From the NCBI RefSeq assembly GCF_000411255.1, contig NZ_KE150413.1:672794-736793 (forward strand): DNA of 64,000 bases. The letters are read 5' to 3'. Every line of letters starts with the position of its first letter. Position 1 is the stretch's first letter. Below, one piece after another: positions 2,444 to 50,438 of the stretch. The translations under genes and the position numbers were made by a program. This DNA comes from Paenibacillus sp. HGH0039. Its GTDB lineage: Bacteria; Bacillota; Bacilli; Paenibacillales; NBRC-103111. Below the pieces are notes generated by a model. It ran no database searches and was not told the DNA's origin. It saw only the letters and a program-made list of their open reading frames with translations.

Positions 2444-2478
2444 GAACCTGATCTTTCTTTCTTGCGGTTTGATACCAT
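2444..2478 (+). promoter_or_regulatory. Cluster-type promoter ahead of AraC regulator 1
   Basis: GAACCTGAT, 20 bases, then TACCAT, ending 35 bases before the GTG start. It matches the motif shared by other units here (rAAsCnGAk-N20-TAnnnT), so the regulator may control itself. A simple AT-rich sigma-A-like promoter near 2395-2415 is an alternative. Confidence 0.45.
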
Positions 2479-2513
2479 GACGGCACCGAAACCATTACGT
2501 GTAGGGGGAATGG

Positions 2514-3191
2514 GTGCCAGTGGACGTGCTACTTATTATCAGCCATCAGCTTAAGGAAGACGAGTTCGAACGAGTACAGAGGTTGTTTTCCCACATGTCT
2601 ATCATTGCCGAATCTGATTTTAAAGCTGTTGCAAGATCGCTCCGCCGGCAGGAAAAAGCTCACAAGCTATTCGTTTTCCTGTCTTTCGACGAATCGCTCC
2701 CGGAGGAATGGAAAATCGAGGAGCTTCAACTGCAAAGCCCGATTATGGTGCTGCTTAAAGTGAACAAACGCGATCTTTTCGTGTTTTATTCTTTTCTCGA
2801 TTCGGTGGGGCTTTTATCCAAGCCGTCCGCCGATTTGCCGGGCAAGCCGGAAATTTCGCCCCTGCTGTATCAGTCTCTTGAATATATCGAACAAAATTTA
2901 TGCGAAAACGACCTGTCCTTGGAGAAAGTGGCATCGAGTATTTTCGTCAGCCGGTGTCATTACTCCAGGATGTTTAAAGAATATTTCGGCTTCGGCTTCA
3001 AGGAATACGTAATGAACAAACGCATTCAGAAAGCGAAGGCCATGCTGCAAAAAGGAGTGCCGGTTACGGATGTATGCTATGCCGTCGGCTACGGGGATTT
3101 AACGCATTTCGGCCGGGTCTTCAAAAGGCTGGTCGGGATAAACCCTTCGGTTTACCGGGGACAAAGGCGGGAAGCGCCGTCCTGCGGATAA
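2514..3191 (+). CDS. AraC-family transcriptional regulator 1
   Basis: 225 residues. The C-terminal 100 form the two helix-turn-helix AraC/XylS domain (LSLEKVASSIFVSRCHYSRM; then VTDVCYAVGYGDLTHFGRVF, a close fit to the second HTH). The N-terminal 110 residues look like a receiver-like alpha/beta fold (MPVDVLLIIS), with no clear phospho-Asp pocket. It is a paralogue of the regulator at 56308: the second HTH is nearly identical (VTDACYAVGYGDMTHFGRIF). The two bracket the main cluster. The GTG start follows GTAGGGGGAATGG. It probably activates the shared promoter motif, which is inferred from position only. Confidence 0.85.
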   Translation: MPVDVLLIISHQLKEDEFERVQRLFSHMSIIAESDFKAVARSLRRQEKAHKLFVFLSFDESLPEEWKIEELQLQSPIMVLLKVNKRDLFVFYSFLDSVGLLSKPSADLPGKPEISPLLYQSLEYIEQNLCENDLSLEKVASSIFVSRCHYSRMFKEYFGFGFKEYVMNKRIQKAKAMLQKGVPVTDVCYAVGYGDLTHFGRVFKRLVGINPSVYRGQRREAPSCG

Positions 3192-3211
3192 CGGGAAAGG
3201 GGGAGGGATTT

Positions 3212-4153
3212 ATGGAAACGGAGCCGATTCGCTCCCGTTATTTCAACCGGCTCACGATCGGGCCGGACGGGCGGTCCGTCCGCAAAACGAGCCGCCGCGA
3301 CAAGAAACTCCGCGACGAGATCAGCTGGTACCTGAATCTGCCGGAGGAATTACACACGTATATCCCCGGTGTTCTGGGCTACTCGCTGCAAGATCAAGTG
3401 TATCTGTGTTTGGAGTATATCCAGGCCCCGACTTTATCGGAGCTGTACATGAGCGGGCGGCTGGATCAGGAAGGCTGGGCGGGCGTCTTTGCCCGGCTGG
3501 ATCAGCTCTTCGGCCGGTTTGCCGCCTTCCCCGCCGAGCTGGATCCAGCCTGTTTGCACGAGATGTACATCGGCAAGACCCAAACGCGCATGGCGGCCTT
3601 TTTAAACGGCAACGAGCGGGCCAGACGGTTTTATAACCAGGGCTATTACCGGCTGAACGGAACGATGGTGCTCTGCCCCTTCCGGATTTTCGAGAGCCAT
3701 CTCGAAGATTTCCGTTCCCTGCTCGATAATCCGGCTATCGCTGTTCTGCACGGCGACCTCTGTTTCTCCAATGTGCTCTATGCGCCGGACAAACAGGCCG
3801 TCAAACTGGTAGATCCCCGGGGCAGCTTCGGCATTCCGGGGATCTACGGCGACCGGCGGTACGACCTGGCGAAAATCAGACACAGCTTGAATGGGTACGA
3901 GCATATTGTCCACGGGCGATATTCTCTGCAAACGGCGGGCAATGACATCCGGCTGGAAATCCCGTTTACGGATGGGCAGCTCCGGCTTCTCCACGACTGG
4001 GACCGGTATCTGGGCAGCCGTCTCCGGGATGTCGCCAAGATTGAGGCGCTGCTGTTCCTTTCGATGCTGCCTCTCCACAGGGAGAGTCCGGAGCGCCAGA
4101 TGGCTTTGTACGCCGTGGCAACCCGTCTGCTGTATGAAATTTTCGCCGATTAG
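3212..4153 (+). CDS. APH/choline-kinase-like phosphotransferase
   Basis: 313 residues starting at the ATG behind AAAGGGGGAGG. The kinase-like fold is shown by the Brenner motif HGDLCFSN (His180, Asp182) and a downstream DPRG that takes the place of the DxD Mg site, followed by DRRYDLAKIRHS. Such aminoglycoside-phosphotransferase-like enzymes often sit in capsule loci beside a small HAD phosphatase and a sugar nucleotidyltransferase, and both of those occur at 7641-8728. A role in phosphorylating a sugar or polyol precursor is more likely than antibiotic resistance, but resistance or self-protection cannot be excluded. It is probably co-transcribed with the AraC gene (20-base gap). Confidence 0.7.
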   Translation: METEPIRSRYFNRLTIGPDGRSVRKTSRRDKKLRDEISWYLNLPEELHTYIPGVLGYSLQDQVYLCLEYIQAPTLSELYMSGRLDQEGWAGVFARLDQLFGRFAAFPAELDPACLHEMYIGKTQTRMAAFLNGNERARRFYNQGYYRLNGTMVLCPFRIFESHLEDFRSLLDNPAIAVLHGDLCFSNVLYAPDKQAVKLVDPRGSFGIPGIYGDRRYDLAKIRHSLNGYEHIVHGRYSLQTAGNDIRLEIPFTDGQLRLLHDWDRYLGSRLRDVAKIEALLFLSMLPLHRESPERQMALYAVATRLLYEIFAD

Positions 4154-4164
4154 AACCCCCTTGT

Positions 4165-4199
4165 TAAGCCGAGGATTCGGGCGCTCATTCTTTTATACT
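4165..4199 (+). promoter_or_regulatory. Cluster-type promoter of peptide gene 1
   Basis: TAAGCCGAG, exactly 20 bases, then TATACT. The ATG at 4235 lies 35 bases downstream. This is one of the best matches to the motif repeated through the cluster. Confidence 0.7.
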
Positions 4200-4234
4200 G
4201 AAAAGGAGCCCACAGAAAAAGGAGAGTGACAAGA

Positions 4235-4513
4235 ATGAATCAGACGGCAGCAAAATTTGTGATGGCAACTGCGATTCTCGTTTCGCCTGCGGCAGGAACA
4301 GCCCTGAAGGCAAGCGCTCACACCGCTGCGGTTCAGGCCCAGCCGGCGGTTCAACCGGCCGGTCAGGGTGTGCAGGCTGTACAGGCGGCACCATCCGGCA
4401 CATTATCCCAAGCCGGAATTTCCGGCGTGAAGACGGATTCCCGGGAAATTTTGCGGGAGTTCGGCGGAGCCGGCAATTTCTCCCCGTCAGTTGTGACGAA
4501 AACTCCAGCGTGA
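4235..4513 (+). CDS. Secreted-type peptide 1 of a four-member family
   Basis: 92 residues. The ATG at 4235 follows AAAAAGGAGA and aligns with its three paralogues (an upstream in-frame GTG at 4226 does not). Residues 1-28 are signal-like: one Lys at position 7, a hydrophobic run FVMATAILVSPAAG, and a signal peptidase-type site ASA at 26-28. Residues 29-60 are Ala/Gln/Pro-rich and look disordered. The C-terminus, NFSPSVVTKTPA, aligns with that of peptide 2 as [F][ST]xxVxxKTxA. It could be a RiPP precursor with a conserved leader and variable core, or a secreted signal. It has its own promoter and terminator. Confidence 0.75.
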   Translation: MNQTAAKFVMATAILVSPAAGTALKASAHTAAVQAQPAVQPAGQGVQAVQAAPSGTLSQAGISGVKTDSREILREFGGAGNFSPSVVTKTPA

Positions 4514-4519
4514 CCGGTC

Positions 4520-4552
4520 AAAAGAGATAAGCGCCCGACGCTTATCTCTTTT
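4520..4552 (+). terminator. Rho-independent terminator after peptide 1
   Basis: Perfect 14-bp stem (AAAAGAGATAAGCG with its complement) around the 5-base loop cccga, ending in T's. The AGATAAGC stem recurs after peptides 2 and 4. Confidence 0.9.
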
Positions 4553-4624
4553 GCGTTTGCAGGCAGGGCTATGACCGGGAAGGTCCGTGGATTGCGAAAT
4601 TTCCGCAGGTTGAAGTCATCCGGT

Positions 4625-4659
4625 AAAGCCGAGAGGGCCGGGCGTTATTTTTCTATACT
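4625..4659 (+). promoter_or_regulatory. Cluster-type promoter of peptide gene 2
   Basis: AAAGCCGAG, exactly 20 bases, then TATACT. The ATG at 4698 lies 38 bases downstream, behind AAAGGAGGT. Confidence 0.7.
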
Positions 4660-4697
4660 GAAGAAGTAGTCACATCCGAGCAAAGGAGGTGAAGAGA

Positions 4698-4979
4698 ATG
4701 AAAGAGATCACGTCTAAATTTATCATCGCCACCGCTATTCTGGCGGCCCCTGCGGCGGCCACGGCTCTGAACGTAAGCGCGCACGCTGCGGCTGTCCAGA
4801 TCCAGCCTCCGGTGATTTCCGAAGGTGGCCCTGTCACTGTGGCGGCTTCTCCGCAATTCAACCCTGCCGCTGCGGAAACAACGGCTGAGATTCAGCCGTC
4901 CGCTTCCGCCGGTATCGTTGAATTAGCCGAGGCGGAACCTTCTTTTACGATCAATGTGTTTAAGAAGACATTGGCCTAA
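4698..4979 (+). CDS. Secreted-type peptide 2
   Basis: 93 residues, gap-free match to peptide 1 over residues 1-28 (MKEITSKFIIATAILAAPAA, then ATALNVSA). There is a signal peptidase-type VSA at 26-28, then an Ala/Pro/Gln-rich spacer and the C-terminus SFTINVFKKTLA. The middle differs strongly from the other copies while both ends stay related, which is how precursor families with a constant leader and a diversified core behave. A GTG nine bases upstream is in frame, but the AAAGGAGGT site is correctly spaced only for the ATG at 4698. Its own promoter and terminator make it a free-standing unit. Confidence 0.75.
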   Translation: MKEITSKFIIATAILAAPAAATALNVSAHAAAVQIQPPVISEGGPVTVAASPQFNPAAAETTAEIQPSASAGIVELAEAEPSFTINVFKKTLA

Positions 4980-4991
4980 GCGAGCCGGACA

Positions 4992-5026
4992 AAGAGAGAT
5001 AAGCGGGGAAGAGGCTTATCTCTCTT
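4992..5026 (+). terminator. Terminator after peptide 2
   Basis: 13-bp perfect stem AAGAGAGATAAGC / GCTTATCTCTCTT with a 9-base loop, followed by a pyrimidine-rich tract (ctctcttttg). Related in sequence to the hairpins after peptides 1 and 4. Confidence 0.85.
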
Positions 5027-5062
5027 CTCTCTTTTGCACCTATGGGGATATGGAGGGAGTAC

Positions 5063-5635
5063 ATGAATCAACGGATGTTTACCTGTCTGGATCTGAGGTC
5101 TTGTTTGAATAACTGCGGAACGACAGGCAGCCATAACTATCACGAGGGCTATTTAAGCTCGGCAAGGGCTTCCTTTCCGGAGGATGCCTTTCAGTTTGAC
5201 GCTCCTTTCGAATTTAAAGAAATACCGTTCGTTCTCTTTAAGCGGCAATCTTTCGATAATATCGTAACGGAAGGACAGTCCATCCAGTTCCCCCGGCAGC
5301 GGGTGACCAACATTCATCTTCTCGGTACCTCGAGCGATGCCAATATGGCGGACTATATGTATTTGATGCTGGACGGGCAGGAGGTCTCGAAGCAGAAGAT
5401 CCTGTTGTCCCATTTTATTTCGGAGGTTCCTTTCCCGCGTAACGAGTGTGTAATCGAAACGTCCTGCCTACATACGATGGATGGCCCTCTTACGCACAGA
5501 TCCGCCAGGCTCTGGTATGACGGGATTGAACTAGACCGTCCGGCCGAGATCAACCGGATTACGTTTGAAGACAACCCTTGCATGCACGTGTTCGGCCTGA
5601 CGCTCGAAAGCGAATCAACACCGGGGGGCAGGTAA
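5063..5635 (+). CDS. Putative carbohydrate-type beta-sandwich protein
   Basis: 190 residues from the ATG at 5063 (behind GGAGGGAG). No signal peptide. The order of motifs (DLRSCLNNCG near the start, an aromatic strand, IPFVLFKRQSFDNIV, a GQSI-FPRQRVTNIHLLG strand, then a Gly/Asp turn) recalls the small beta-sandwich modules attached to glycoside hydrolases, in which a VxxxxGQxIxLP strand precedes LHLLG. No catalytic residues are apparent. It sits between peptide genes 2 and 3 without a promoter of the shared type, so it is probably read through from peptide 2. It may recognise a glycan or a glycosylated peptide. The assignment is tentative. Confidence 0.5.
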   Translation: MNQRMFTCLDLRSCLNNCGTTGSHNYHEGYLSSARASFPEDAFQFDAPFEFKEIPFVLFKRQSFDNIVTEGQSIQFPRQRVTNIHLLGTSSDANMADYMYLMLDGQEVSKQKILLSHFISEVPFPRNECVIETSCLHTMDGPLTHRSARLWYDGIELDRPAEINRITFEDNPCMHVFGLTLESESTPGGR

Positions 5636-5659
5636 TATTTACCTAATAAAGGGAGGGAT

Positions 5660-5694
5660 ACAGCCGAGGACCCGGCCGGGATAGCTCTTATACT
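5660..5694 (+). promoter_or_regulatory. Cluster-type promoter of peptide gene 3
   Basis: ACAGCCGAG, exactly 20 bases, then TATACT. The ATG at 5737 lies 42 bases downstream. Confidence 0.7.
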
Positions 5695-5736
5695 AAAAGA
5701 GAGCCGGCACTCTTAGAAGAAAGGAGGATGGATGGA

Positions 5737-6009
5737 ATGAAGGAAACGACGACTAAGTTTCTCATTGCGACTGCTGTACTGGTGTCTCCCGTCATGGGCA
5801 CGGCCCTGGACGTCAGCGCCGGTCAGCCCGCGTTTGTCCAGGCGCACACGGCGTCTGCAGACGTTCAGCAGGACCGGGCGGTATCCGCGTCCGAAGATAC
5901 TTATTTAAGCTTGCGGACAGCGAAGAAAGCGTCCGATCTGCGTTTGCAGGAACCGGGAGAATATACGGTTTCAGGCGTATCGTCGCTGTGCGTAAAATGT
6001 GTGGCCTAA
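5737..6009 (+). CDS. Secreted-type peptide 3 (Cys-containing C-terminus)
   Basis: 90 residues. The start at 5737, the second of two close in-frame ATGs, is chosen because it aligns with the family and is spaced properly from AAAGGAGG. Residues 1-28 match without gaps (MKETTTKFLIATAVLVSPVM, ending DVSA). The C-terminus, EYTVSGVSSLCVKCVA, is Ser/Thr/Val-rich with two Cys three apart. It is the only copy with a CxxC at the end, and peptide 4 also ends in Cys. The pattern fits a variable core acted on by modifying enzymes, but no lanthionine or radical-SAM enzyme lies in the window. Confidence 0.72.
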   Translation: MKETTTKFLIATAVLVSPVMGTALDVSAGQPAFVQAHTASADVQQDRAVSASEDTYLSLRTAKKASDLRLQEPGEYTVSGVSSLCVKCVA

Positions 6010-6028
6010 ATACCTGGAAAACTCCGGT

Positions 6029-6062
6029 GAGACGAGCCCGTACGGGCAGTCTCCCGTTTTTC
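6029..6062 (+). terminator. Hairpin between peptide genes 3 and 4
   Basis: GAGAC plus GCCCG pairs with CGGGC plus GTCTC (one unpaired base on each side), followed by CCGTTTTT. It is a likely terminator or attenuator. No promoter is visible between it and peptide gene 4, so partial read-through is implied. Confidence 0.75.
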
Positions 6063-6104
6063 ATGTGAAGGATCGCCCATTCCAGGGAAAGGAAGGTGAA
6101 ACGG

Positions 6105-6392
6105 ATGAACCAAACGGCCGCGAAATTCGTCATTGCCACCGCCATTCTTGTCTCTCCGGCTGCGAGTGAGGCTCTTAACGCGAATGCGACTGTGCAGGCG
6201 CTGACTGCACAAGGCACGGCTGCGGACTCTTTGCAGGCGAAACCGGCGGGCTGTGCGTTTCTTCCCGGCAGTACCCTTGCAGGTGCTCAAACATCTCCGT
6301 CTGCGGCCGGGATAGTTGCACGGCACGGCGAAGAATACACGGCACCGGCCTTTACAAGCTCGGGTTTCACAGGTTTTGCCCTGAAATGCTAG
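6105..6392 (+). CDS. Secreted-type peptide 4 (ends in Cys)
   Basis: 95 residues from the ATG at 6105 behind GGGAAAGGAAGG. The N-terminal 18 residues are nearly identical to peptide 1 (MNQTAAKFVIATAILVSP), and the signal peptidase-type site ANA is at 26-28. The body has AGCAF and ends GFTGFALKC, so two Cys could form a disulfide or thioether. The C-terminal aromatic/Thr pattern (EEYTAPAFTSS) echoes peptide 3 (GEYTVSGVSS). It lacks its own copy of the shared promoter and probably depends on read-through from peptide 3. Confidence 0.72.
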   Translation: MNQTAAKFVIATAILVSPAASEALNANATVQALTAQGTAADSLQAKPAGCAFLPGSTLAGAQTSPSAAGIVARHGEEYTAPAFTSSGFTGFALKC

Positions 6393-6422
6393 GTGAGCGT
6401 GGCGGCAGACTCCGATGACCGG

Positions 6423-6453
6423 AAGAGATAAGCTGTAACCCGGCTTATCTCTT
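6423..6453 (+). terminator. Terminator after peptide 4
   Basis: 11-bp perfect stem AAGAGATAAGC / GCTTATCTCTT with a 9-base loop, followed by tctctc. Same stem core as after peptides 1 and 2. Confidence 0.8.
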
Positions 6454-6470
6454 TCTCTCATTTACGAGGC

Positions 6471-6505
6471 CGGTACGAGGCCAAGGAAAAACCCCGATTT
6501 ACAGC
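6471..6505 (+). promoter_or_regulatory. Weak candidate cluster-type promoter of BtrH-like 1
   Basis: CGGTACGAG, 20 bases, then TACAGC, 25 bases before the ATG at 6531. Only CGAG and TA are conserved. It was found by looking for the known spacing, so it may be chance. Confidence 0.25.
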
Positions 6506-6530
6506 TTAACGGAGGAGGACGGACCGACGG

Positions 6531-7565
6531 ATGACTTTTACGTTATACAAAGAAACCCGGTTGAATTGTTTCTACGTCAATATTGCGGCTCTGCTGAAGC
6601 GGCTTCCCGTTGAAGATGCCCATCTGATTTATTTGTTCAACCAGGCCGGTTTGTTTTATCGCGATACGGAGGATGAGGATGAGTTTCAAATCAGCCCCTA
6701 TTACCGGCTGCTGGACGATTTTGTGTACGGGCTGTTCGGAGCGCGGCTCCATAAGACGGGATCCTCGGCGGGAGACGATTACATGCGGACTTTGAAAGAG
6801 ACTCTTGCGAACGGGAAGAGTGCGATCATCGAATCCGATATTTTTTATTTGCCGTACAGCGGGTTTTATAGAAGGACCCATTTTCCGCACGCATTGGAGG
6901 TTACCGGATACCGGGAGGGCACGTTCGAAATCTGCGATCATTATTACGAATATCACGGCTTTCTCGAAGAGTCCGAACTGCAGGCCGTATTCGACGCTTC
7001 GCTGGACAGCGCGTTTTATAAACGGTTGTATGTGTGGTTTCTGAAAAAAACGGAAGGGCCCGCTCCCGAGGAGCTTACACCGGCATTCTGTAAAAGCGTA
7101 ATCCAAGACAACCTGGCGAATATGCAGGGAGCCGTCACCTACGATTGTCCGTCCGGCAGTTATCCCGGTCTCGCCGCTTTCGTGCCCATTTGCGGGAAAA
7201 TAAAAAGCCTGAAGACGATCGAAGAAGACTCCGTCAAGTTTAAGGCAGCCAGTTATTTATATGAAGGATTCAGGGAGATCGCCAACTCCCGGTACCACCA
7301 TCACCATTTTCTTAAAGCTATCGGGGAGCACGCGCTCGCCGAATCTTATCTGGAAGCCGATCAAAGCTGGATGGTGGCGGCTAATTTGCTCATGCGGGCG
7401 GCGACGGGCAATCAATTCCAAGCCTTCGAAGAGCGGATATTGGCCCGAATGGAGCGGGTGAAGCAGAAAGAAGCCGATAATACCGCCCTTCTGCAGCAGT
7501 GGCTCGACCGGCGGACGGCGGGGCCGTCCGATGACGTCCGCAAGGATGAATCAACAACCGCCTAA
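6531..7565 (+). CDS. BtrH-like acyltransferase 1
   Basis: 344 residues. The N-terminal half resembles the BtrH N-terminal domain, a papain-like fold that in butirosin biosynthesis moves an acyl group from a carrier protein to an amine. The expected Cys-His-Asp set can be placed as Cys13 (RLNCFYVN), His120 (FPHALEVTGY) and Asp136 (CDHY). The C-terminal half is helical. It follows the peptide genes directly and heads no ACP of its own, so the amine acceptor could be a peptide or a sugar. Two paralogues lie at 36514 and 46886. The family is fairly clear and the substrate is unknown. Confidence 0.65.
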   Translation: MTFTLYKETRLNCFYVNIAALLKRLPVEDAHLIYLFNQAGLFYRDTEDEDEFQISPYYRLLDDFVYGLFGARLHKTGSSAGDDYMRTLKETLANGKSAIIESDIFYLPYSGFYRRTHFPHALEVTGYREGTFEICDHYYEYHGFLEESELQAVFDASLDSAFYKRLYVWFLKKTEGPAPEELTPAFCKSVIQDNLANMQGAVTYDCPSGSYPGLAAFVPICGKIKSLKTIEEDSVKFKAASYLYEGFREIANSRYHHHHFLKAIGEHALAESYLEADQSWMVAANLLMRAATGNQFQAFEERILARMERVKQKEADNTALLQQWLDRRTAGPSDDVRKDESTTA

Positions 7566-7577
7566 TATCCCGCAACG

Positions 7578-7612
7578 GAATCTGATTCTTGTCCGGCCCG
7601 CTCTGGTACGAT
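7578..7612 (+). promoter_or_regulatory. Possible cluster-type promoter of the HAD operon
   Basis: GAATCTGAT, 20 bases, then TACGAT, 28 bases before the ATG at 7641. It is a moderate match, close to the copy ahead of the AraC gene. Confidence 0.35.
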
Positions 7613-7640
7613 TGCCGTAGGCAAAGAATGGAGGAATACT

Positions 7641-10477: not shown

Positions 10478-10855
10478 GTGACCCAGACTTTGACCGGAAT
10501 AGATCATGTTCAACTGCCTGTCTCTAACCTGAAGCAGTCCATTGAGTGGTATGGGAAAATGTTCGGCTGCACGCTGCTCGATAACTACGGGGAATGTGCG
10601 ATGCTGAAACTGGAGAACGGTCCGAATTTAATGCTGTGGCAGTCCAGCGACTATTCTTCCGCACATTTTGACAAAGACGGAGAGACCATGCCGGTCATCT
10701 TCTTCAAAAGCAACGAAATCGATCTCCTTGCCCGCAGGCTGGAAGAAGAGCAGGTTAGAATCGTCAGCTTCGATGACGGCGGCTTTGCCAAGTTTCTGAA
10801 ATTTTACGACATTAACCATAATTTTATCGGCGTTTTACAATTGAAGGAGGCTTAA
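10478..10855 (+). CDS. VOC/glyoxalase-fold protein
   Basis: 125 residues, a single vicinal-oxygen-chelate unit: IDHVQLPVSNLKQSIEWYGKMFG at the start (first metal His), a Leu/Trp core, and the DINHNFIGVLQL end. Such proteins include bleomycin-type resistance proteins and small-molecule isomerases. It has its own sigma-A-like promoter and terminator, which would suit constitutive self-protection or an unrelated metabolic gene. No more specific role is visible. Confidence 0.75.
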   Translation: MTQTLTGIDHVQLPVSNLKQSIEWYGKMFGCTLLDNYGECAMLKLENGPNLMLWQSSDYSSAHFDKDGETMPVIFFKSNEIDLLARRLEEEQVRIVSFDDGGFAKFLKFYDINHNFIGVLQLKEA

Positions 10856-10902: not shown

Positions 10903-10948
10903 CGTTCTCTGACGGCCGTACAGCTTAATCCCGCAGCATTACGCATGG

Positions 10949-10983
10949 AAACCCGAGAAGACGGGGCGACGGAAACCTACAAT
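10949..10983 (+). promoter_or_regulatory. Cluster-type promoter of the isomerase/ABC operon
   Basis: AAACCCGAG, exactly 20 bases, then TACAAT. The ATG at 11055 lies 71 bases downstream. Good match to the shared motif. Confidence 0.65.
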
Positions 10984-17212: not shown

Positions 17213-18981
17213 ACACGAGGCAGTTTTTATGGAGGATGGCCGCTTACCATCCCGGATTGTTTTGGAAGGGTATCTTTCAATGGCTTCCCTTTAACCTGGC
17301 TCCGGTTGCCGCCGGCCTTCTGATGAAAGTGTTTTTCGACCAGCTTACGGGTCATTCGGCATCGTCCGACGTCACCTGGTTCGTCGTGGCCCTGCTGGCT
17401 GTCAATGCGGCCGCAACGCTGGGATCGATCCGGTTTGCGTCCCGCACCGAAACCGCGCTTAATTTCCGCATCAAGGGACTTATCCGCCAAAATCTGCTGA
17501 ATCACATCCTCGGCCAGCCGGGAGCAAGAGCTATTCCGGGGTCGCCGGGCGAGGCCGTCAGCCAGTTCCGGGACGATGTGGATCAACTGGCCGATACGAT
17601 AAGGAACGTGAACCTTCTCGTTGTCAAAACGGTCTTTTTCTTTACGGCACTGGCCGTGTTACTCGCGGTAAACGTACCGGTAACGCTGGGCGTCATTCTT
17701 CCGCTGATTGCCGTATTTGCTCTCGTGCAGACGATCATCATCCGGATGAACGTCCGGCTCCGGCCGAAGGGCAACGGGCGGCGGGAATTGTCCGGCTTTA
17801 TGAGCGAGGTATTCCAATCGGTGCTGGCGGTCAAAGCAGCCGGAGCCGAGGACAGTGTAGTGGAAGAATTCTCGCGTCTTTCCGATGAACGGCGAAAGCA
17901 GGTTTCCCGCGATAGAGTCATGAGCCAGCTCATGTACGCGCTGCTGCCGAATCTGGTCCAGATCGGATCGGGCATCCTTCTGTTGGCCGGTGCACGCCTG
18001 CTTGGACCGGGGGAGTTTACCGTCGGAGATTACGCTTTGTTCGTTCATCTGCTGCTGCACATGAGCAAGTTTATTGAGTACAGCGGAACCAGCATCACTC
18101 AGATCAAGCAGGTAAAAGGATATCTAAGGCGCCTGAACTGGCTGCTGCAGGGTTCGTCCCTGGACAGGATGATCGACTTCAAGCCCCTGGATCTGGCGGA
18201 GACGCCCCCGGCCGCCCCGCCGCCTGCCGTTTCGGAATCTAGACAGTTCAAACAGCTTCAGACGAAATCCCTGACCTATTTTTACCCCGGCAGCTCCAAA
18301 GGAATCAAGCGGATCGATCTTCAGATCTCCCGCGGTTCTTTTGTCGTCATCGTAGGACGAGTCGGCTCGGGTAAAACGACGCTGCTCAGAACGATACTGG
18401 GTCTGCTGCCGGCGGGGGCCGGAGAGATCCGCTGGAATAACCGACGGATCGCGAACCCGGGAGAATTTTTTATCCCTCCGCGCACCGCTTATACGCCTCA
18501 AGTGCCTAAGCTGTACAACGGAACGCTGAGGGAAAATATTTTGCTCGGCCTGCCTGAAGAGGGCTTGGAGCAAGCCGTTTATGACGCCGTGCTGGAAGAA
18601 GATGTACGTCTGCTGGAAAACGGGCTCGATACGGCGGTCGGAGTCCGCGGCGTGAAATTGTCGAACGGTCAAATCCAGCGCTCCGCCGCCGCCCGGATGT
18701 TTGTCCGCGACAGCGAGGTTCTTGTCGTCGACGACATGTCGAGCGCCCTGGACGCCGAGACGGAAAGCAGGCTGTGGGAGCGTCTGAACGCCCGCGAGGA
18801 AGCGACCTGCCTGGTCGTTTCTCACCGGAGAGAGGCGCTGCGGCGGGCCGACCATATTATCGTTATGAAGGACGGGGAAATTGAAGCCCAGGGCACCTTC
18901 CGGGAGCTGACCCTCGCTTCGGAGGAATTCAGAGCGCTATTGGATGAAGCCGGCGGCACTTTACCGGTGAATCGTCCTTAA
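17209..18981 (+). CDS. ABC exporter subunit 4 (degenerate ATP site)
   Basis: 590 residues. Walker A GRVGSGKT, signature LSNGQIQ (first Gly changed), Walker B VLVVDDMSSALD with Asp in place of the catalytic Glu, H-loop VSHRREAL. It overlaps subunit 3 by an ATGA, giving a second heterodimer. Its stop is followed at once by the next cluster-type promoter, so there is no terminator between exporter and sugar operons. Confidence 0.86.
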   Translation: MNTRQFLWRMAAYHPGLFWKGIFQWLPFNLAPVAAGLLMKVFFDQLTGHSASSDVTWFVVALLAVNAAATLGSIRFASRTETALNFRIKGLIRQNLLNHILGQPGARAIPGSPGEAVSQFRDDVDQLADTIRNVNLLVVKTVFFFTALAVLLAVNVPVTLGVILPLIAVFALVQTIIIRMNVRLRPKGNGRRELSGFMSEVFQSVLAVKAAGAEDSVVEEFSRLSDERRKQVSRDRVMSQLMYALLPNLVQIGSGILLLAGARLLGPGEFTVGDYALFVHLLLHMSKFIEYSGTSITQIKQVKGYLRRLNWLLQGSSLDRMIDFKPLDLAETPPAAPPPAVSESRQFKQLQTKSLTYFYPGSSKGIKRIDLQISRGSFVVIVGRVGSGKTTLLRTILGLLPAGAGEIRWNNRRIANPGEFFIPPRTAYTPQVPKLYNGTLRENILLGLPEEGLEQAVYDAVLEEDVRLLENGLDTAVGVRGVKLSNGQIQRSAAARMFVRDSEVLVVDDMSSALDAETESRLWERLNAREEATCLVVSHRREALRRADHIIVMKDGEIEAQGTFRELTLASEEFRALLDEAGGTLPVNRP

Positions 18982-19016
18982 AAAGCCGAGTGCTCCGACT
19001 CCGTGCTTCTTACACT
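18982..19016 (+). promoter_or_regulatory. Cluster-type promoter of the sugar/carbamoyl operon
   Basis: AAAGCCGAG starting one base after the ABC stop, exactly 20 bases, then TACACT. The TTG start at 19090 lies 73 bases downstream. Confidence 0.65.
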
Positions 19017-31439: not shown

Positions 31440-31474
31440 ATTATAAAATCCGGTCCGTTCCGGGCCTCAGGTTT
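31440..31474 (-). promoter_or_regulatory. Cluster-type promoter of PhyH 1 (minus strand)
   Basis: Read on the minus strand: AAACCTGAG, exactly 20 bases, then TATAAT, 35 bases before the TTG start. The same motif in the opposite orientation supports a real regulon element. Confidence 0.6.
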
Positions 31475-31534
31475 TCTTGTCCGGTTGACGCCGTAAAAAC
31501 GAAACGGGAAAGAATGTCCGATTAACGAGCAAGA

Positions 31535-31569
31535 AGATCAGATTGTCCGTTCCACGGCGTTGTTAGAAT
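31535..31569 (+). promoter_or_regulatory. Possible cluster-type promoter of carbamoyltransferase 4
   Basis: AGATCAGAT, exactly 20 bases, then TAGAAT, 30 bases before the ATG at 31600. Moderate match to the shared motif. Confidence 0.45.
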
Positions 31570-37564: not shown

Positions 37565-37816
37565 ATGAACCAAACAGCCATGGAAGCTGTGATTATTGAA
37601 CATGTGAAACAGATTTTGCCCCAGCAGATCGAGATTGAACCGACCACCAAGCTTCTCGAAACGGGAATCGACTCCATGAGTTTTATCCGGCTTGTGGTGT
37701 TGCTGGAGGAAGCTTTCAACATCGTGATCGAAGACGAGGAAATTCTACTTGAGAATTTTACCAGTGTGGAAACGATCCGGAACCTCATTCAGAAATGCCT
37801 GGACAGTAAACAGTGA
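37565..37816 (+). CDS. Acyl/aminoacyl carrier protein 1
   Basis: 83 residues behind GAGGTGTAAGC. A four-helix ACP with the phosphopantetheine Ser in LLETGIDSMSFIRLVVLLEEAF (Ser37). The DSM context is typical of stand-alone ACPs. As last gene of the ligase operon it is the probable partner of the amino acid:carrier protein ligase, so an aminoacyl rather than fatty-acyl carrier. It would be activated by the AcpS at 9930. Confidence 0.9.
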   Translation: MNQTAMEAVIIEHVKQILPQQIEIEPTTKLLETGIDSMSFIRLVVLLEEAFNIVIEDEEILLENFTSVETIRNLIQKCLDSKQ

Positions 37817-37861
37817 ACCGGACGGAACGCACGCCAACAGAAGACGAAGAGGTCATGGTCA

Positions 37862-37896
37862 AAAGCAGAGTAACCGGCCGGGGGATATGAGATAGT
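37862..37896 (+). promoter_or_regulatory. Possible cluster-type promoter of the 177-residue unknown
   Basis: AAAGCAGAG, exactly 20 bases, then GATAGT, 50 bases before the ATG at 37947. The left half is good and the -10 is poor. Confidence 0.4.
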
Positions 37897-37946
37897 AAAA
37901 GTACCCCGGGGAAACAAAAAAAACAGCCACTCAAGGAGGCAAACCC

Positions 37947-38480
37947 ATGAAAACCGCATCGTCCAAAAAGAATGCCAAGCAAGTGACCATGACGCTGGAG
38001 AACTCCAACAGCAAAACTTATCTGGAGCTGCTGGACGGACGTTCCGAAGAGCTTCAATTCACTCAGGTAGCACCGACCGAGTTCACCGTCAACGATTCCG
38101 AGTTCAGCCTGAAATCCGGCATCAATGTGGAACTGGGCATCAAAAATGTCGATCTTGTCGCAACTTCGAGCGTGATCTGGCCGGGACAAACCATCCGCGT
38201 CCGCGGTGGTCTGCACGGACAAGGCGCGGCCATGAAAGCTAAAGCCACAATCCCGTTCAACAAAAAAATGGCGGACGGCGTTCAAGGCGAGTCCTGGCTG
38301 TACTGGGTGATCGAAACTCCGGAAGGCGAATTCCACAACAAACAGGCGATTCACATGAAAGGGACCCTGAAAGGCCTGCCTCCGAAAAACGCCACGTTCT
38401 ATTCGGACAGCGTCACTCCGCTGTTTGACAGCGAAGACAATCAAGTGGGAACCGTATACGGATGCCTGCAATCTAACTAA
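37947..38480 (+). CDS. Unknown beta-rich 177-residue protein
   Basis: The Lys-rich start (MKTASSKKNAKQVTM) is followed by an all-beta-looking body with many alternating hydrophobics and Gly (SVIWPGQTIRVRGGLHGQGA). No signal peptide, membrane segment or catalytic motif. It stands alone, with its own promoter, a strong AAGGAGG and its own terminator, and uses a narrow set of codons, which hints at high expression. It might be a structural, binding or substrate protein. I do not recognise a family. Confidence 0.65.
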   Translation: MKTASSKKNAKQVTMTLENSNSKTYLELLDGRSEELQFTQVAPTEFTVNDSEFSLKSGINVELGIKNVDLVATSSVIWPGQTIRVRGGLHGQGAAMKAKATIPFNKKMADGVQGESWLYWVIETPEGEFHNKQAIHMKGTLKGLPPKNATFYSDSVTPLFDSEDNQVGTVYGCLQSN

Positions 38481-44044: not shown

Positions 44045-44079
44045 GAAGCAGAGAGAAGCGGCGGCGGGACCTTTACAAT
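44045..44079 (+). promoter_or_regulatory. Cluster-type promoter of the ACP 2/dehydratase operon
   Basis: GAAGCAGAG, exactly 20 bases, then TACAAT, 33 bases before the GTG at 44113. Confidence 0.6.
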
Positions 44080-44112
44080 GAAAGCAACGGAAAGTTTGGA
44101 GGGGGAAGCAAC

Positions 44113-44352
44113 GTGTGTGCGAAAGATCAAATACGTCTGTTTTTAAGCGATCAAGGCTGCGGTATGCTGCCGGTCGAAGAGATTAGCGAAGAAAAGCGGC
44201 TTTTCGATATGGGATTCGATTCGCTGCGGTTTATGGAGCTTGTCGTGCTTATCGAGGAGCATTTCGGAGTCCAGTGGCCGGACGAAGCGCTGGAAATCAG
44301 CGGCAGTACGCAGGTCAGGGATATCGTTCAGGCGCTTGAAGGCTGTTTATGA
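44113..44352 (+). CDS. Acyl carrier protein 2
   Basis: 79 residues from a GTG at 44113 behind GGAGGGGG. ACP helix II signature DMGFDSLRFMELVVLIEEHFG with the phosphopantetheine Ser. The acidic face and D-S-L context suit interaction with KS, KR and DH enzymes. It overlaps the first dehydratase gene by ATGA, so it is likely the carrier for chain elongation or dehydration steps. Confidence 0.9.
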   Translation: MCAKDQIRLFLSDQGCGMLPVEEISEEKRLFDMGFDSLRFMELVVLIEEHFGVQWPDEALEISGSTQVRDIVQALEGCL

Positions 44353-44789
44353 GCCGCCGCCCGGACTACGGTCATTTGCTGACGATGCTGCCCCATCAGT
44401 TTCCCCTCCGGGTGCTGGACGAGGTAAAGGATTATTCGCCCGGAAAATTTCTTGTGGCCGGATGCAGCCCGCTGCCGCTGAAGATCTACTTCGGCAATAC
44501 GGATACCATTCCGCCTACCCTGCTGATTGAGGGGCTGGCCCAAGCGTGCGTCATCCTGACCCAATTGGAGACGGCGCCCCTGGAGGAAGATGAAGTTCCC
44601 CTGCTGGGAGCGATCAAGGCCAAGCTGCTGATGCCCATATCCTGGCAGGAACCCATTATTTACAAGGTAGAACCCGTCCGCATTTTAAGCAAAAAAGCGA
44701 TCTTTACCGGCACTTTGTACCGGTCGGACGGAACAACGGCGGTATCGGCCGAACTAAGCGTAGCTGTTGCCGCGACATCAAATTCATAA
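44349..44789 (+). CDS. FabZ-like hotdog protein lacking the catalytic His
   Basis: 146 residues. The fold is FabZ-like (LPHQFPLRVLDEV at the start; PPTLLIEGLAQACVIL with the usual Glu), but the GHFPG strand reads KIYFGNTDTIPP, so the catalytic His is gone. The next gene has the His. In aryl-polyene and other highly reducing type II systems the dehydratase is a heterodimer of one complete and one defective FabZ-like subunit. This pair fits that pattern. Confidence 0.78.
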   Translation: MSRRPDYGHLLTMLPHQFPLRVLDEVKDYSPGKFLVAGCSPLPLKIYFGNTDTIPPTLLIEGLAQACVILTQLETAPLEEDEVPLLGAIKAKLLMPISWQEPIIYKVEPVRILSKKAIFTGTLYRSDGTTAVSAELSVAVAATSNS

Positions 44790-44806
44790 TAGGCGGGGAC
44801 CATCGT

Positions 44807-46016: not shown

Positions 46017-46019
46017 GTC

Positions 46020-46886
46020 ATGTGGAAGCAAAGAAGATTCGGCCGTGATCGCGGTATCTACGGACTCGTGGAAGAACCTGACGGACCCGGGAACGATCTC
46101 GTTGTGACGTTCGCGGGATTGGGCCAGGCGATGAGCGAAAAAAACTACCTGTTCTCCAACCTGCGCAAATATTTGGCCCGGAGCGGAGTAAGGGTCGTTC
46201 AATTTGACTACCGCGGCCACGGGGACAGCTTCGGAGAACTGGGGGACACGACGGTGTCCGGCATGAAGCGGGATGCGCTCGAAGTGCTTGCCGAAGTTTT
46301 GGAAGAGTACCCGGCGGAGAGGATTTTCCTGATCGGCAATGCCCTCGGCGGGATCATAGCCCTCCAGACGGCAGCCGCACTGCAGAAGAAGGAGGAAGCT
46401 GCTCCCGTCTGTATCCCTGTACTGCTGGCGCCTCCCTTCCGGAAATTCCCGGAGAAGGAAGCTTTGTTCGGGCGGGAGGCGCTTCAAGCTCTCCGCCGTG
46501 AAGGAAAGCTCGACGCCCAGCTTCTTGTGCCGGGCTTCGATTATTACACGCTGAGCGACTTTAACCGGGAGCCGTACGACTTTTTTATGGCTTGGGGCGC
46601 CCATATGCTTTATTTGCACGGTCAGTGTATTTCAGCCGGTATGCTGGACGAGCTTCTTGAGCTGGATACGGCCCGTCTTGTCAGAGAATACGGCGGGCCT
46701 CTGCACATCATGTGCAGCAGGGAAGATGAAGAGGCCCGGACGATAGCGGAGGCAATGGACCACGTCATTCTGCACAGGATGCAGGGATACCGGTATTTTT
46801 ACCAGCATCCTGCGGCAATGGACCAATGGATAACCGAGGCGGTCTCCATTGTACGGAGCGATAACGGGGAGAGGGAGAAATTTTAA
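46020..46886 (+). CDS. Alpha/beta hydrolase with Ser nucleophile replaced by Ala
   Basis: 288 residues of the same fold as the gene before. The elbow GxSxG reads GNALGG, so the nucleophile is Ala. The base at the codon is clear (gcc). Without it ordinary hydrolysis is not possible. It may serve as a scaffold or non-catalytic partner of the active hydrolase, or catalyse a non-hydrolytic step such as a rearrangement. Its stop overlaps the next ATG by one base. Confidence 0.7.
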   Translation: MWKQRRFGRDRGIYGLVEEPDGPGNDLVVTFAGLGQAMSEKNYLFSNLRKYLARSGVRVVQFDYRGHGDSFGELGDTTVSGMKRDALEVLAEVLEEYPAERIFLIGNALGGIIALQTAAALQKKEEAAPVCIPVLLAPPFRKFPEKEALFGREALQALRREGKLDAQLLVPGFDYYTLSDFNREPYDFFMAWGAHMLYLHGQCISAGMLDELLELDTARLVREYGGPLHIMCSREDEEARTIAEAMDHVILHRMQGYRYFYQHPAAMDQWITEAVSIVRSDNGEREKF

Positions 46887-47854
46887 TGGAAGAAACCCGG
46901 AAAACAATAGCGCAAACCATCCTGTCCCAAAAAAACGACTGGCGGTTCCCGGACGGCGAAGGATTATCCCAGCGCACGCTTGACTGCAGACAGCTCTGCA
47001 TGATGGAGGTGCTTAAATGGAAAGGAGAGCGGCAGCTTACGCCCGTTTTCCTGAACGCCTTCGACTGCGAGTCGAACGGACTCATGCTGAGGCGCAGGGA
47101 GCCCGAGCCGGGGAGAGGCTGGAGGCTGACAAAATATTCCCCTTTGAATACGGAGGGACTGTATCCTCTGATTGATTCCGTCTTCGATCACGAAGGCTAC
47201 TGTCTGTTGTTTTACAATGCGAAGGAAGCCGTGTTCTCCTCGTATTACGGGAAGCACGATATCGTTCATTGGTCGCTGCTGGTCGATTATGACGAGGCGG
47301 GGGTGACACTGGTCGATGACGAAGGGGCCCCGGCTTTTTTTAACGGGTATATCGGCAAAGTCCCCTGGGAAACGCTGATGAGCGCTCAGGCGAACTCGGA
47401 GAAGGGCGGTGTCGCCATCCTTGGACGCCGGCCGGGGTATGCGAAGACTTGGGAGGAAGAATTCCTCTCGCTGGTCCGCGCCTCGGTACACAATATGGTC
47501 GATCAGCAGGGACTTAAGAATCTGGAGAACTTCGTAAAGGCGATTGCGGAAAGCCCGCCGGAAGCCTTGATCCCCATGCTGGAAACGCTGGAGTTCGACG
47601 TCCACTATTTCCGCCGGTTGAGGGAGCTGTGGAAAACGGCCGTGGAGAACGGCGCCATACCGGAGCGGTACAAAGCCCCCGGCTGGGTGGAGGAGCTTGT
47701 TTACGTGTGCAAATCATGGTCTTTGGTTATGGGGGTTCTGGCTAAGTGGAAAAGGCAGCCGGATAAAGACTATTCGGCTAAGCTTACCGATTATCTCGGG
47801 CAAGCCCTTGAAAGCGAAAAAGGGTTTTACCGGGAGCTACGACATCTGGTATGA
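46886..47854 (+). CDS. BtrH-like acyltransferase 3
   Basis: 322 residues, the least typical of the three. Candidate catalytic residues are Cys34 or Cys38 (LDCRQLCMMEV), His128 (IVHWSLLVDYD) and Asp144 (LVDDEG). The C-terminal half is helical. It follows two ACP-related dehydratases and two hydrolases, so its acyl donor may be the polyene-type chain on ACP 2. It belongs to the same operon as an M29 peptidase and an MGT. Confidence 0.6.
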   Translation: MEETRKTIAQTILSQKNDWRFPDGEGLSQRTLDCRQLCMMEVLKWKGERQLTPVFLNAFDCESNGLMLRRREPEPGRGWRLTKYSPLNTEGLYPLIDSVFDHEGYCLLFYNAKEAVFSSYYGKHDIVHWSLLVDYDEAGVTLVDDEGAPAFFNGYIGKVPWETLMSAQANSEKGGVAILGRRPGYAKTWEEEFLSLVRASVHNMVDQQGLKNLENFVKAIAESPPEALIPMLETLEFDVHYFRRLRELWKTAVENGAIPERYKAPGWVEELVYVCKSWSLVMGVLAKWKRQPDKDYSAKLTDYLGQALESEKGFYRELRHLV

Positions 47855-47862
47855 GGTGAATC

Positions 47863-48960
47863 ATGAAAGAAGAGTTCAAGCGGATTGCGGACACGATCGT
47901 CAGCCATTCTCTGAGGCTTCGTCCGGGAGAAAAAGTGGTAGTCAAAGTCCGTGGAGATGCGGCGGATTTGACCGAAAGCCTGATCGCGCGCATCTACGAG
48001 GCCGGAGCGGTCCCTTTTCTGCAGACAACGGACGTCGAGGAGCTTAAATGGCTGCTGGCGGGAGCCTCCGAGGAACAGATCCGCCAGTGGGCGGAGCATG
48101 ACCTGGGCCTTGTCGAAGCCATGGACGCGTACATCGGGATTCACTCGGAAGCCAATACCTTCGAAATGGAAGATGCGGACCAGACGCGCTACGGCTATTA
48201 CGTGAAGCATTATCTTCAGCCTCTGACAATGACAATGGCTTCCAAGCCCAAATGGGTGCTGCTCCGCTATCCCACCCCGGGAATGGCCCAGCAGGCGGGC
48301 ATCGGAACCTCGAAGCTCCGGCAAATCTACGCCTCGTCCTGCCTGATGGATTACGGGGGGCTCCAAGAAAAGGCGGAGCCGCTCCGGAAGCTGCTTGGGC
48401 GGACAAGCCGTATCCGTATCGTCTCGCCCGGGACGGATTTGTCTTTCTCCGTGAAAGGCGTTCCCTCTTTCCTGTGCGACGGCCGCTACAATCTTCCCGA
48501 CGGAGAGCTGTTTACGGCGCCGGTGGCCGGCTCGGCGGAAGGCCGGATCACGTTCAATGTGCCGACAAGCTGCATGGGCAAAACGTTCGATTCCGTCGCG
48601 CTCACGTTCCGGCAGGGCAAAGTGACCGAGTGGTCGGCGGACGATACCGAAGCGCTGAGCGGCATTTTAAAGACGGACGAGGGAGCTTCCCGTCCGGGCG
48701 AATTCGGCATCGGGCTGAATCCCCATATCCGACAACCCATGCGCAGCCTGCTGTTCGACGAAAAGATGGCGGGAAGCATTCATCTTGCCTTGGGACAAGC
48801 CTACGAGATGGCCGATAACGGGAACACCTCGGGTATACATTGGGATCTCGTTTTATGCCAGCTCGAAGCCTATGGAGGCGGCGAACTTTATTTTGACGAC
48901 ATTCTGATCCGTAAAAACGGTTATTTCGTTATGCCGGAATTGGAACCGTTAAATCCTTGA
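47863..48960 (+). CDS. M29-family aminopeptidase
   Basis: 365 residues. It has the M29 (AmpS/AmpT) layout: an N-terminal alpha/beta part, then metal-site motifs LPDGELFTAPVAGSAEG near 208-224, EFGIGLNPHIR near 284, FDEKMAGSIHLALGQAY near 300 and HWDLVL near 326. It should remove N-terminal residues from a peptide in the cytosol. In a cluster with an aminoacyl-ACP arm and secreted peptides it could trim a protecting amino acid, as seen in pro-drug removal, but this is inference. Confidence 0.85.
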   Translation: MKEEFKRIADTIVSHSLRLRPGEKVVVKVRGDAADLTESLIARIYEAGAVPFLQTTDVEELKWLLAGASEEQIRQWAEHDLGLVEAMDAYIGIHSEANTFEMEDADQTRYGYYVKHYLQPLTMTMASKPKWVLLRYPTPGMAQQAGIGTSKLRQIYASSCLMDYGGLQEKAEPLRKLLGRTSRIRIVSPGTDLSFSVKGVPSFLCDGRYNLPDGELFTAPVAGSAEGRITFNVPTSCMGKTFDSVALTFRQGKVTEWSADDTEALSGILKTDEGASRPGEFGIGLNPHIRQPMRSLLFDEKMAGSIHLALGQAYEMADNGNTSGIHWDLVLCQLEAYGGGELYFDDILIRKNGYFVMPELEPLNP

Positions 48961-48975
48961 ACGGGAGGGAAGCGG

Positions 48976-50142
48976 ATGGCTCACCTGTTTATCGCGGTCC
49001 AGAGGGTTCTGGGACATGTAATTCCGGCCTTGGCTATCGGACAGCAGCTTAAGAAGAAGGGGCATAAAGTCACGCTGGTTACCCACCCTGCCAATAAGGA
49101 GCTGGCTGTTCGTGCGGGACTGGCCTTCCTGCCGGCGGAATGGGGAAAATTTCCGGAGAAGTTTATTTATGAACAGGCCCAGGAAATGGATGCGCTGCTT
49201 GCCGGCCGGGAAGTCGACTGGATGATTTGCGATTCTTCCCAAGCGGCCCCGGCTTATGCGGCGGAGAAAAGAGGAATCCCCTGGATCAGCCTCCAAACGA
49301 CGGTTCCTTATCCCGAAGAAGCGCTTCCCGGCAGCCGGACCGTCTTCAACCGGCTGAGGCAGAGCTACGCTCGGGAGCTGAACGGGGTCAGGATGAGACT
49401 GGGACTGCCGCCGCTTACCGATGACAGGAGAACGCGGGGAGATCTGGCGGGGCTGTCTCCCCGGCTTCATCTGGTCAACGTCCATGCCGCGCTGTACCCG
49501 GAGGAAGGCGGCATTCCGGAACAGTCCGTGTTTACCGGGAGCTGCACGCTTGAGTCCGGAGACCGTGACCGCGTAACCGAGGCGTCCCGGTTAGAGGCGG
49601 AACCGTGCCCGGGCCGTCCCGTTGTTCTCGTCTGCGCTTCCTCGACGGAACGGCATGATTCCAGGGAGGTCATGAACCGCTATATCGGCGCGGCCGTGAG
49701 TCTGTCGGAGGAGAATTCATTTCATCTGATCGTTGCGGAACATAAGCCGTACGAAGGGAAGCGGCCTCTGCCTCCCCATGTCAGCTGGATAACGGCTTAT
49801 CCCAATCACGATCTCCTGCTGCCCCGTGCGGACGCTGTCATTACGCATGGAGGCTGCGGCACCGTACAGTCCGTCATGAGGTACGGCGTCCCCATGGTTG
49901 TGATTCCTCTCGCATCCGACCAGCATCTTCTGGCCCGGACATGTGAGCGCCTCGGAATCGCCCTGACCGTCGGCCCGGAGGAAGCGGGACGCGGGCGGAT
50001 CGGACAGGCGCTTCACAGCCTGCTGGCGGAGGGAAACCCGTATACACCACGGGCCAAGGAACTGGCTGCGATTATGGGGCGGGACAACCCGAACGAAACG
50101 GCCGTCCGCGCCATCGAACAAGTTCTGCAAAATAATTCGTAA
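48976..50142 (+). CDS. MGT-family (GT1) glycosyltransferase 2
   Basis: 388 residues, GT-B fold. N-terminus HLFIAVQRVLGHVIPALAIGQQL, donor signature THGGCGTVQSVMRYGVPMVVIPLASDQ near 292-318, with the GT1 His-Gly-Gly and Asp-Gln. It differs clearly from MGT 1 and so may add another sugar. As usual for this family it likely uses a small lipophilic acceptor. It is followed by ACP 3 in the same operon. Confidence 0.86.
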   Translation: MAHLFIAVQRVLGHVIPALAIGQQLKKKGHKVTLVTHPANKELAVRAGLAFLPAEWGKFPEKFIYEQAQEMDALLAGREVDWMICDSSQAAPAYAAEKRGIPWISLQTTVPYPEEALPGSRTVFNRLRQSYARELNGVRMRLGLPPLTDDRRTRGDLAGLSPRLHLVNVHAALYPEEGGIPEQSVFTGSCTLESGDRDRVTEASRLEAEPCPGRPVVLVCASSTERHDSREVMNRYIGAAVSLSEENSFHLIVAEHKPYEGKRPLPPHVSWITAYPNHDLLLPRADAVITHGGCGTVQSVMRYGVPMVVIPLASDQHLLARTCERLGIALTVGPEEAGRGRIGQALHSLLAEGNPYTPRAKELAAIMGRDNPNETAVRAIEQVLQNNS

Positions 50143-50154
50143 AGGATGAAGCGC

Positions 50155-50388
50155 ATGTTGACCGGAGAAGCGGCACTGGAAGTCATTCAGAAAATCGGCG
50201 AGCTCGATAACGTGGAGATGGATACCAATTTTCTGGAAAAAGGAATAGATTCCGTTAAGGTTGTTGAAATTCTGATTGAGTTCGAAATGATGTTCAATAT
50301 CGACGTTCTGGACGATCAGCTGAATCTGGACGAACTGTCGACTCCCAAACACATTCAGGATTACGTAAACGGAATTATCGCCAAGTAG
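50155..50388 (+). CDS. Acyl carrier protein 3
   Basis: 77 residues. AAAGGA lies about 7 bases from the ATG at 50155; an in-frame ATG at 50146 sits inside that site. Phosphopantetheine Ser in FLEKGIDSVKVVEILIEFEMMF. It is the last gene of the operon begun at 44113, with the next cluster-type promoter starting 15 bases on. Its loader could be the acyl-AMP ligase at 51294. Confidence 0.88.
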   Translation: MLTGEAALEVIQKIGELDNVEMDTNFLEKGIDSVKVVEILIEFEMMFNIDVLDDQLNLDELSTPKHIQDYVNGIIAK

Positions 50389-50403
50389 CGCAGAGCCGCC
50401 AGG

Positions 50404-50438
50404 AAAGCCGAGTAACTCCCCCTTCGACCCTCTATGCT
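50404..50438 (+). promoter_or_regulatory. Cluster-type promoter of the 50.5-62 kb operon
   Basis: AAAGCCGAG, exactly 20 bases, then TATGCT, 47 bases before the TTG at 50486. Confidence 0.65.

Follow-up and report, generated by a model that had tools for sequence, protein, structure and literature searches.

In this study, we analysed a stretch of 64,000 nucleotides of a 6.36 Mb Paenibacillus genome (contig C2, 672794-736793, approximately 1% of the genome; hereafter the window), which contains most of a large, uncharacterised, type II polyketide-like biosynthetic gene cluster. In nearly all operons of this cluster, the promoter has a common two-box element at a fixed distance from a sigma-A -10 hexamer. 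The frame common to both promoter classes found here is CAA-N6-CnGA(G/T)-N20-TAnnnT, with 20-21 bases to the -10 when relatives are included. Because the motif is confined to the cluster, keeps a fixed geometry, is conserved across genera and has no usable -35, we believe that these promoters are best read as one cluster-wide regulon with an activator-type left element, as a preliminary description of the window had proposed. Quite probably, the left element is bound by AraC/XylS-family activators that the cluster itself encodes (AraC1, AraC2 and AraC3), which would work by class II activation.

The motif and its two promoter classes

The nine strong sites of the preliminary description all exist, two of them, ahead of the genes at 4235 and 5737, being one base off the strict string (TAAGCCGAG and ACAGCCGAG). 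The regular expression rAAsCnGAk-N20-TAnnnT found 9 strict matches in the window; 300 dinucleotide shuffles averaged 0.14 ± 0.37 matches and had no more than 2. When the left element was held fixed and the spacer was varied from 8 to 35, there were 10 matches at 20 and 0-2 at any other length. Seven of the 9 strict matches lie at promoters (2444, 4625, 10949, 18982, 44045 and 50404 on the plus strand and 31474 on the minus strand), and the end of the -10 is 28-73 bases from the start codon, gene starts being estimates. The strict matches at 7353 and 9900 are intragenic, do not recur in all congeners and probably arose by chance.

The genome-wide tests were pattern searches. AARCCGAG-N20-TANNNT had 10 matches in the genome, 4 of them in the window; AAGCCGAG-N20-TAYAMT with at most 1 mismatch had 12, of which 7, including all 3 perfect ones, were in the window. 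For CnnnnAAASCnGAG-N20-TAnnnT, 5 of 6 matches fell in the cluster, and for the class 2 pattern given below, 4 of 4 in 6.36 Mb. Since a reversed-pattern control gave similar whole-genome totals for the looser patterns, the point is not abundance but concentration, with more than half of the good matches in approximately 1% of the genome. Because the tighter patterns were built from the very sites that they match, their exclusivity to the cluster is a description; the independent test is the cross-species evidence. Six genome matches outside the cluster were inspected; they were mostly in or beside open reading frames and showed no grouping. The enrichment that had been proposed as a check was found, and equal motif density elsewhere was not seen.

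The preliminary description had treated its strong sites as one set, and the site ahead of 2514 proved to belong to a second class. Class 1 sites correspond to AAAGCCGAG, have no -35, mostly lack an extended -10 and head the structural operons. Their consensus, CWWnnAAAGCmGAG-N20/21-TAtaaT, was taken from 47 aligned sites, one of which (5666 in G000) was aligned out of register, so that the counts are slightly imprecise. At least 4 of the 6 bases of TTGACA were matched at the -35 in none of 45 class 1 sites, against a background of approximately 10%, and the extended -10 TGn was rare (11%). In approximately 47 aligned sites, a second box, CAA, lies some 10 bases upstream of CCGAG; position -6 is C in 72% of them, and in a scan of CAA offsets the exact -6 position stood out over every other offset.

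Class 2 sites have the form CAA-N6-CWGAT-N17-TGn-TAnnnT, with an extended -10 and an invariant gap between the boxes. In congeners they stand ahead of araC1 (2514), 7641, 31600 and araC3 (the araC3 copy matched in 3 of 5), and in another family the araC1 orthologues (G272, G337, G376) have one as well. Of the copies previously described as weak, three are conserved, those ahead of 7641 and 31600 as class 2 sites and the one ahead of 37947 as a class 1-like site; the copy ahead of 6531 has no conserved counterpart in the congener alignment and was dropped. The gene of a VOC protein (10478..10855, plus strand) serves as an internal contrast: its promoter, TTGACG/TAAGAT, is ordinary as had been stated, with 5 of 6 bases of the -35 consensus in the window species and one congener.

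These promoters show the features by which a class II AraC/XylS promoter is recognised. The site is asymmetric with two boxes approximately one helical turn apart; the proximal box, 20-21 bases from TAnnnT, covers the first 3 positions of a 17-spaced -35; the -35 is absent or poor and the -10 (TAtaaT) is of sigma-A type; and AraC-family proteins with two helix-turn-helix (HTH) motifs are encoded alongside the targets. A second half-site about 21 bases away, as in the paired AraC/XylS subtype, was not apparent, as no conservation was found 10-34 bases upstream of the core in the aligned sites; paired half-sites are not required of the SoxS/MarA/Rob subtype.

The left element had been described as either an activator site or an unusual sigma recognition element, and the evidence favours the former. 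A dedicated alternative sigma factor, reading the left element as an unusual -35 and TAnnnT as its -10, would suit the strict 20-21 spacing and the single highly conserved block. However, the -10 consensus is sigma-A-like, class 2 sites bear the sigma-A extended -10 TGn, the left element is further from the -10 than the usual -35 spacing, and the CAA box one turn upstream would be left unexplained. We consider this explanation very unlikely, because the sigma-A-like -10, the absence of a sigma domain among the scanned cluster proteins and the two-box AraC/XylS layout favour an activator site. The long spacer also recalls MerR-type activation through an over-long 19-20 base spacer, but the promoters lack a TTGACA-like -35, and the spacer is unconserved in sequence and has no conserved dyad; the chance of this mechanism is negligible. 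It is likewise extremely improbable that the site is a repression operator at which an AraC-family or other repressor blocks the -35 region. The site does overlap the -35 position, but in class 1 promoters there is no -35 that could be blocked and mostly no extended -10, so they should be weak without an activator.

Conservation among relatives

The cluster is syntenic in four congeners. In the aligned upstream regions, AAGCCGAG and the -10 are invariant or nearly so, and the spacer and flanks have diverged in G002 and G003. One-base indels give a spacer of 21 ahead of 19090 and araC1 in G002 and G003 and ahead of 50486 in G001, so the earlier claim of exactly 20 bases holds for the sites of the window and becomes 20 or 21 among relatives. 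When 12 clusters were pooled, the distance from AAGCnGAG to TAYnnT was 20 in 22 matches and 21 in 20 matches, and no other spacer between 5 and 44 had more than 1 match.

A family-wide search for AAAGCCGAG-N19-21-TAYAMT gave 3-5 matches per congener, 2-4 in four g18 genomes with an araC1 homologue and 0-2 in the remaining family genomes, with controls near zero. The homologous cluster of g18 has 40-60% protein identity, a different gene order and 7-8 such promoters, some of them on the minus strand. Related clusters, recognised by the 177-amino-acid protein of the gene at 37947, are present in 22 of 395 genomes of the order; these belong to 10 genera and several families. A class 1 site stands ahead of the araC2 gene itself in G071, G083, G085, G106, G111 and G165, and the motif heads the orthologues of 52732 in G272 and G337. 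Related genomes are not independent of each other. Judged from these sequences, the predicted regulon recurs in several bacterial families with its operons reshuffled.

Candidate activators and proposed mechanism

Among the cluster proteins scanned, those of the AraC family alone are recognisable as DNA-binding, and in the stretch examined every cluster has at least one AraC homologue and most have two. AraC1 (2514..3191, plus strand), with homologues in all clusters, combines a receiver-like N-terminal domain with the AraC two-HTH DNA-binding domain (Pfam HTH_18/HTH_AraC), and we regard it as the leading candidate for activator of the motif promoters. In its structural model, the N-terminal domain is a receiver-like alpha/beta fold and the DNA-binding domain matches AraC, MarA and the class II RamA complex. 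A second AraC-family regulator, AraC2 (56308..57012, plus strand), is missing in G002 and G003, which keep the motif, so it was ruled out as the sole regulator. A third copy, AraC3, lies at C2:739455, approximately 2.7 kb past the end of the window, and has its own class 2 site upstream. A tree of 38 homologues resolved an AraC1 clade, an AraC2 clade and others. Class 2 sites were found in 8 of 8 clusters with an AraC1-clade protein, ahead of its gene, and in 0 of 11 other clusters.

Residues G192, Y193, D195, T197, H198, F199 and F203 in the region of the second recognition helix were invariant over 17 paralogues and orthologues. This helix (196-207 in the AraC1 model) is nearly invariant and the first recognition helix is variable, in keeping with a proximal box that is strongly conserved and a distal box that is less so, if the assignment of helices to boxes is, as we assume, that of established AraC-family structures.

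The mechanism that we infer, which takes in the identity of the binder, the direction of regulation, two grades of expression and a sensed signal, would run as follows. One AraC monomer would read CAA with one HTH and CnGA(G/T), one helical turn downstream, with the other. GA(G/T) would then sit on the first bases of the would-be -35 hexamer, 17 bases from the -10, so the activator would replace the missing sigma-A -35 contact. Once on the site, the AraC protein or proteins would contact sigma-A region 4 and bring polymerase to the -10. Without the activator, there would be next to no transcription from class 1 promoters; with it, all structural operons would fire together. Class 2 promoters, which have the extended -10 TGn and lie ahead of the araC genes, a sugar operon and a carbamoyltransferase, would have more basal activity and allow autoregulation.

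Several observations weigh against activation by the cluster's AraC proteins. In class 1, the distal CAA box is poorly conserved (72/60/53% at its three bases), and a single conserved half-site is seen here in place of the paired half-sites of several known AraC-family proteins. The correlation between class 2 sites and AraC1 amounts to approximately two independent lineages. Class 1 sites are kept without AraC2 in G002 and G003 and without the AraC1 clade in G111; no single AraC clade tracks them, so the paralogues would have to share one site. Finally, G122, G223, G274 and G334 have AraC homologues and a related cluster with few or no class 1 sites; at the 37947 orthologue, G223, G274 and G334 still have AAGCAGAG, followed after approximately 20 bases by a GATAAT-like -10.

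The inexact tracking of class 1 sites by any single AraC paralogue would be expected if another DNA-binding protein, encoded elsewhere or a conserved cluster protein such as 57058 or 46886, were the activator and the AraC proteins acted elsewhere. This is unlikely, since AraC proteins are the sole recognisable DNA-binding proteins of the scanned cluster and occur in every cluster, the araC genes are themselves headed by class 2 sites, and the site layout suits two HTHs one turn apart. We therefore still prefer the cluster's AraC proteins as the activators. A more complete picture is put forward tentatively, as one that may well prove wrong in part: the activator box would fully replace the -35 across the whole cluster, in two grades, one strictly dependent on the activator, at the structural operons, and one with an extended -10, at the araC genes and the early sugar steps, and would be read by two to three AraC paralogues with receiver-like N-termini, with the wiring kept across families despite operon reshuffling.

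Promoters across the cluster and comparison with known systems

The cluster encodes four ABC half-exporters, sugar genes (SIS, PfkB, cytidylyltransferase, HAD, epimerase), several carbamoyltransferases, many PhyH dioxygenases, acyl carrier proteins, ketosynthases, dehydratases and one ketoreductase, together with an AMP-ligase, an aminotransferase, methyltransferases and, in the window, two AraC-type regulators. Its promoters are given here on the plus strand unless stated otherwise. The class 2 site of araC1 (CAA-N6-CTGAT-N17-TGA-TACCAT, 2439..2478) is kept in four congeners and at the three orthologues named above. Class 1 sites then precede the small secreted-like protein 4235 (AAGCCGAG-N20-TATACT, 4166..4199), the small protein 4698 (AAAGCCGAG-N20-TATACT, 4620..4659) and the small protein 5737 (CAGCCGAG-N20-TATACT, 5661..5694). 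These three are among four paralogous proteins of 90-95 amino acids (4235-4510, 4698-4976, 5737-6006 and 6105-6389), found in congeners only; they share a conserved start that resembles a signal peptide, KFxIATAILVSPA, and vary at the C-terminus. Three of the four genes have their own class 1 promoter, and most are then followed by a strong hairpin (AGAGATAAGC...GCTTATCTCT). Possibly, they encode secreted peptides or precursors.

A class 2 site (CAA-N6-CTGAT-N17-TGG-TACGAT, 7573..7612), conserved in 5 species, precedes the 7641 operon for a HAD phosphatase, a sugar nucleotidyltransferase, a glycosyltransferase and an acyl carrier protein synthase. The class 1 site AAACCCGAG-N20-TACAAT (10944..10983) heads the 11055 operon, a TIM-barrel isomerase followed by the four ABC half-exporters, and has an orthologous site in G071, G083, G085, G106, G115 and G165. 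Another, AAAGCCGAG-N20-TACACT (18977..19016; the spacer of 21 in G002 and G003 was noted above), heads the 19090 heptose/carbamoyltransferase operon. On the minus strand, AAACCTGAG-N20-TATAAT (31440..31479, class 1) lies ahead of a PhyH dioxygenase (31404-30598), and the class 2 site CAA-N6-CAGAT-N17-TGT-TAGAAT (31530..31569, plus strand), conserved in 5 species, lies ahead of the carbamoyltransferase 31600. The class 1 site AAGCAGAG-N20-TACAAT (44046..44079) precedes the acyl carrier protein 44113 and the dehydratase/hydrolase operon, and has an orthologous site in the same six genomes as that of 11055 and in G376. The last, AAAGCCGAG-N20-TATGCT (50399..50438, class 1), heads the 50486 operon, which includes araC2. 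The regulon continues beyond both window ends: an N21 class 1 site lies ahead of a family 2 glycosyltransferase (L119 19077-20000, C2:672077 onward) at one, and the class 2 site of the third AraC gene (L026, C2:739250 onward) at the other.

The gene at 37947 has the class 1-like site AAGCAGAG-N20-GATAGT (37863..37896), with related sites in G223, G274 and G334. In G223 and G334 only (L149, L148), the region upstream of the 37947 orthologue has tandem copies (AAGCCGAG, then AAGCAGAG) 22 bases apart, an arrangement that resembles paired AraC-type half-sites. Directly upstream of the 37863 promoter is a small acyl carrier protein gene (37565-37842) that is absent from the longer list of open reading frames. 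The 5' leader of the 37947 gene (37891-37920, ATAnTAAAAGTACCCCGGGGA) shows cross-genus conservation and might be an RNA element; an Rfam search of the window returned no known RNA family. Of the products compared, the encoded protein (37947-38480, 177 amino acids) is the most highly conserved, at 82-89% against 40-65% for the others. It had no Pfam or NCBIfam match, and a search of viral contigs was empty. Its predicted fold (predicted local distance difference test 88) matches DynF (template-modelling score 0.70), a lipid-binding beta-barrel of the dynemicin enediyne pathway (PMC8725005). The modelled DynF-like fold suggests a polyene-type type II polyketide product. A dehydratase-like protein (44349-44789) has as its closest match AmcE, the cyclising decarboxylase in the cispentacin pathway, but the match falls below the curated cut-off.

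The type of mechanism is already known, and the regulon and its wide conservation appear to be new within the literature searched, in which nothing relevant was found for a published motif or cluster. An orphan type II polyketide-like cluster becomes a defined regulon with named operators and candidate activators, which gives a direct handle for turning the cluster on, either by expressing an araC gene or by reporting from a class 1 promoter. The motif is also a sequence tag for related clusters and for true cluster borders, and the orthologous promoters are a natural set for studying how an activator replaces a -35.

In Streptomyces, the SARP and LuxR-type activators of antibiotic clusters are likewise one cluster-encoded family with repeated operators ahead of most operons; they differ from the present regulon in protein family, site architecture and host. 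In Paenibacillus polymyxa, the AraC/XylS-family regulator MsmR1 regulates polymyxin synthesis (PMC9722767) and is similarly an AraC-family regulator of an antibiotic pathway in this genus. In contrast, it is described as a global regulator with binding sites mostly in coding regions and without the present motif (PMC9722767). Studies have shown that AraC-family sites take the layouts TGCA-N6-GGNTA (XylS), TAGC-N7-ACCTGA (AraC) and GCAC-N7-CAA (Rob) (PMC4514859), and that the Rob box overlaps the -35 and occludes the contact of sigma region 4 (PMC13335620). The promoters of this study resemble XylS-dependent Pm and the class II promoters of AraC (araI2), RhaS and SoxS/MarA/Rob in their asymmetric two-box site with a gap of 6-7 bases, in a proximal box that abuts the -35 at a fixed distance from a sigma-A -10 without a good -35, and in a cognate two-HTH AraC protein. 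They differ in the sequences of the boxes and in having one conserved half-site where XylS and AraC have two. Here, moreover, the spacing is 20 or 21, there are grades with and without an extended -10, and more than a dozen promoters form one cluster-wide set.

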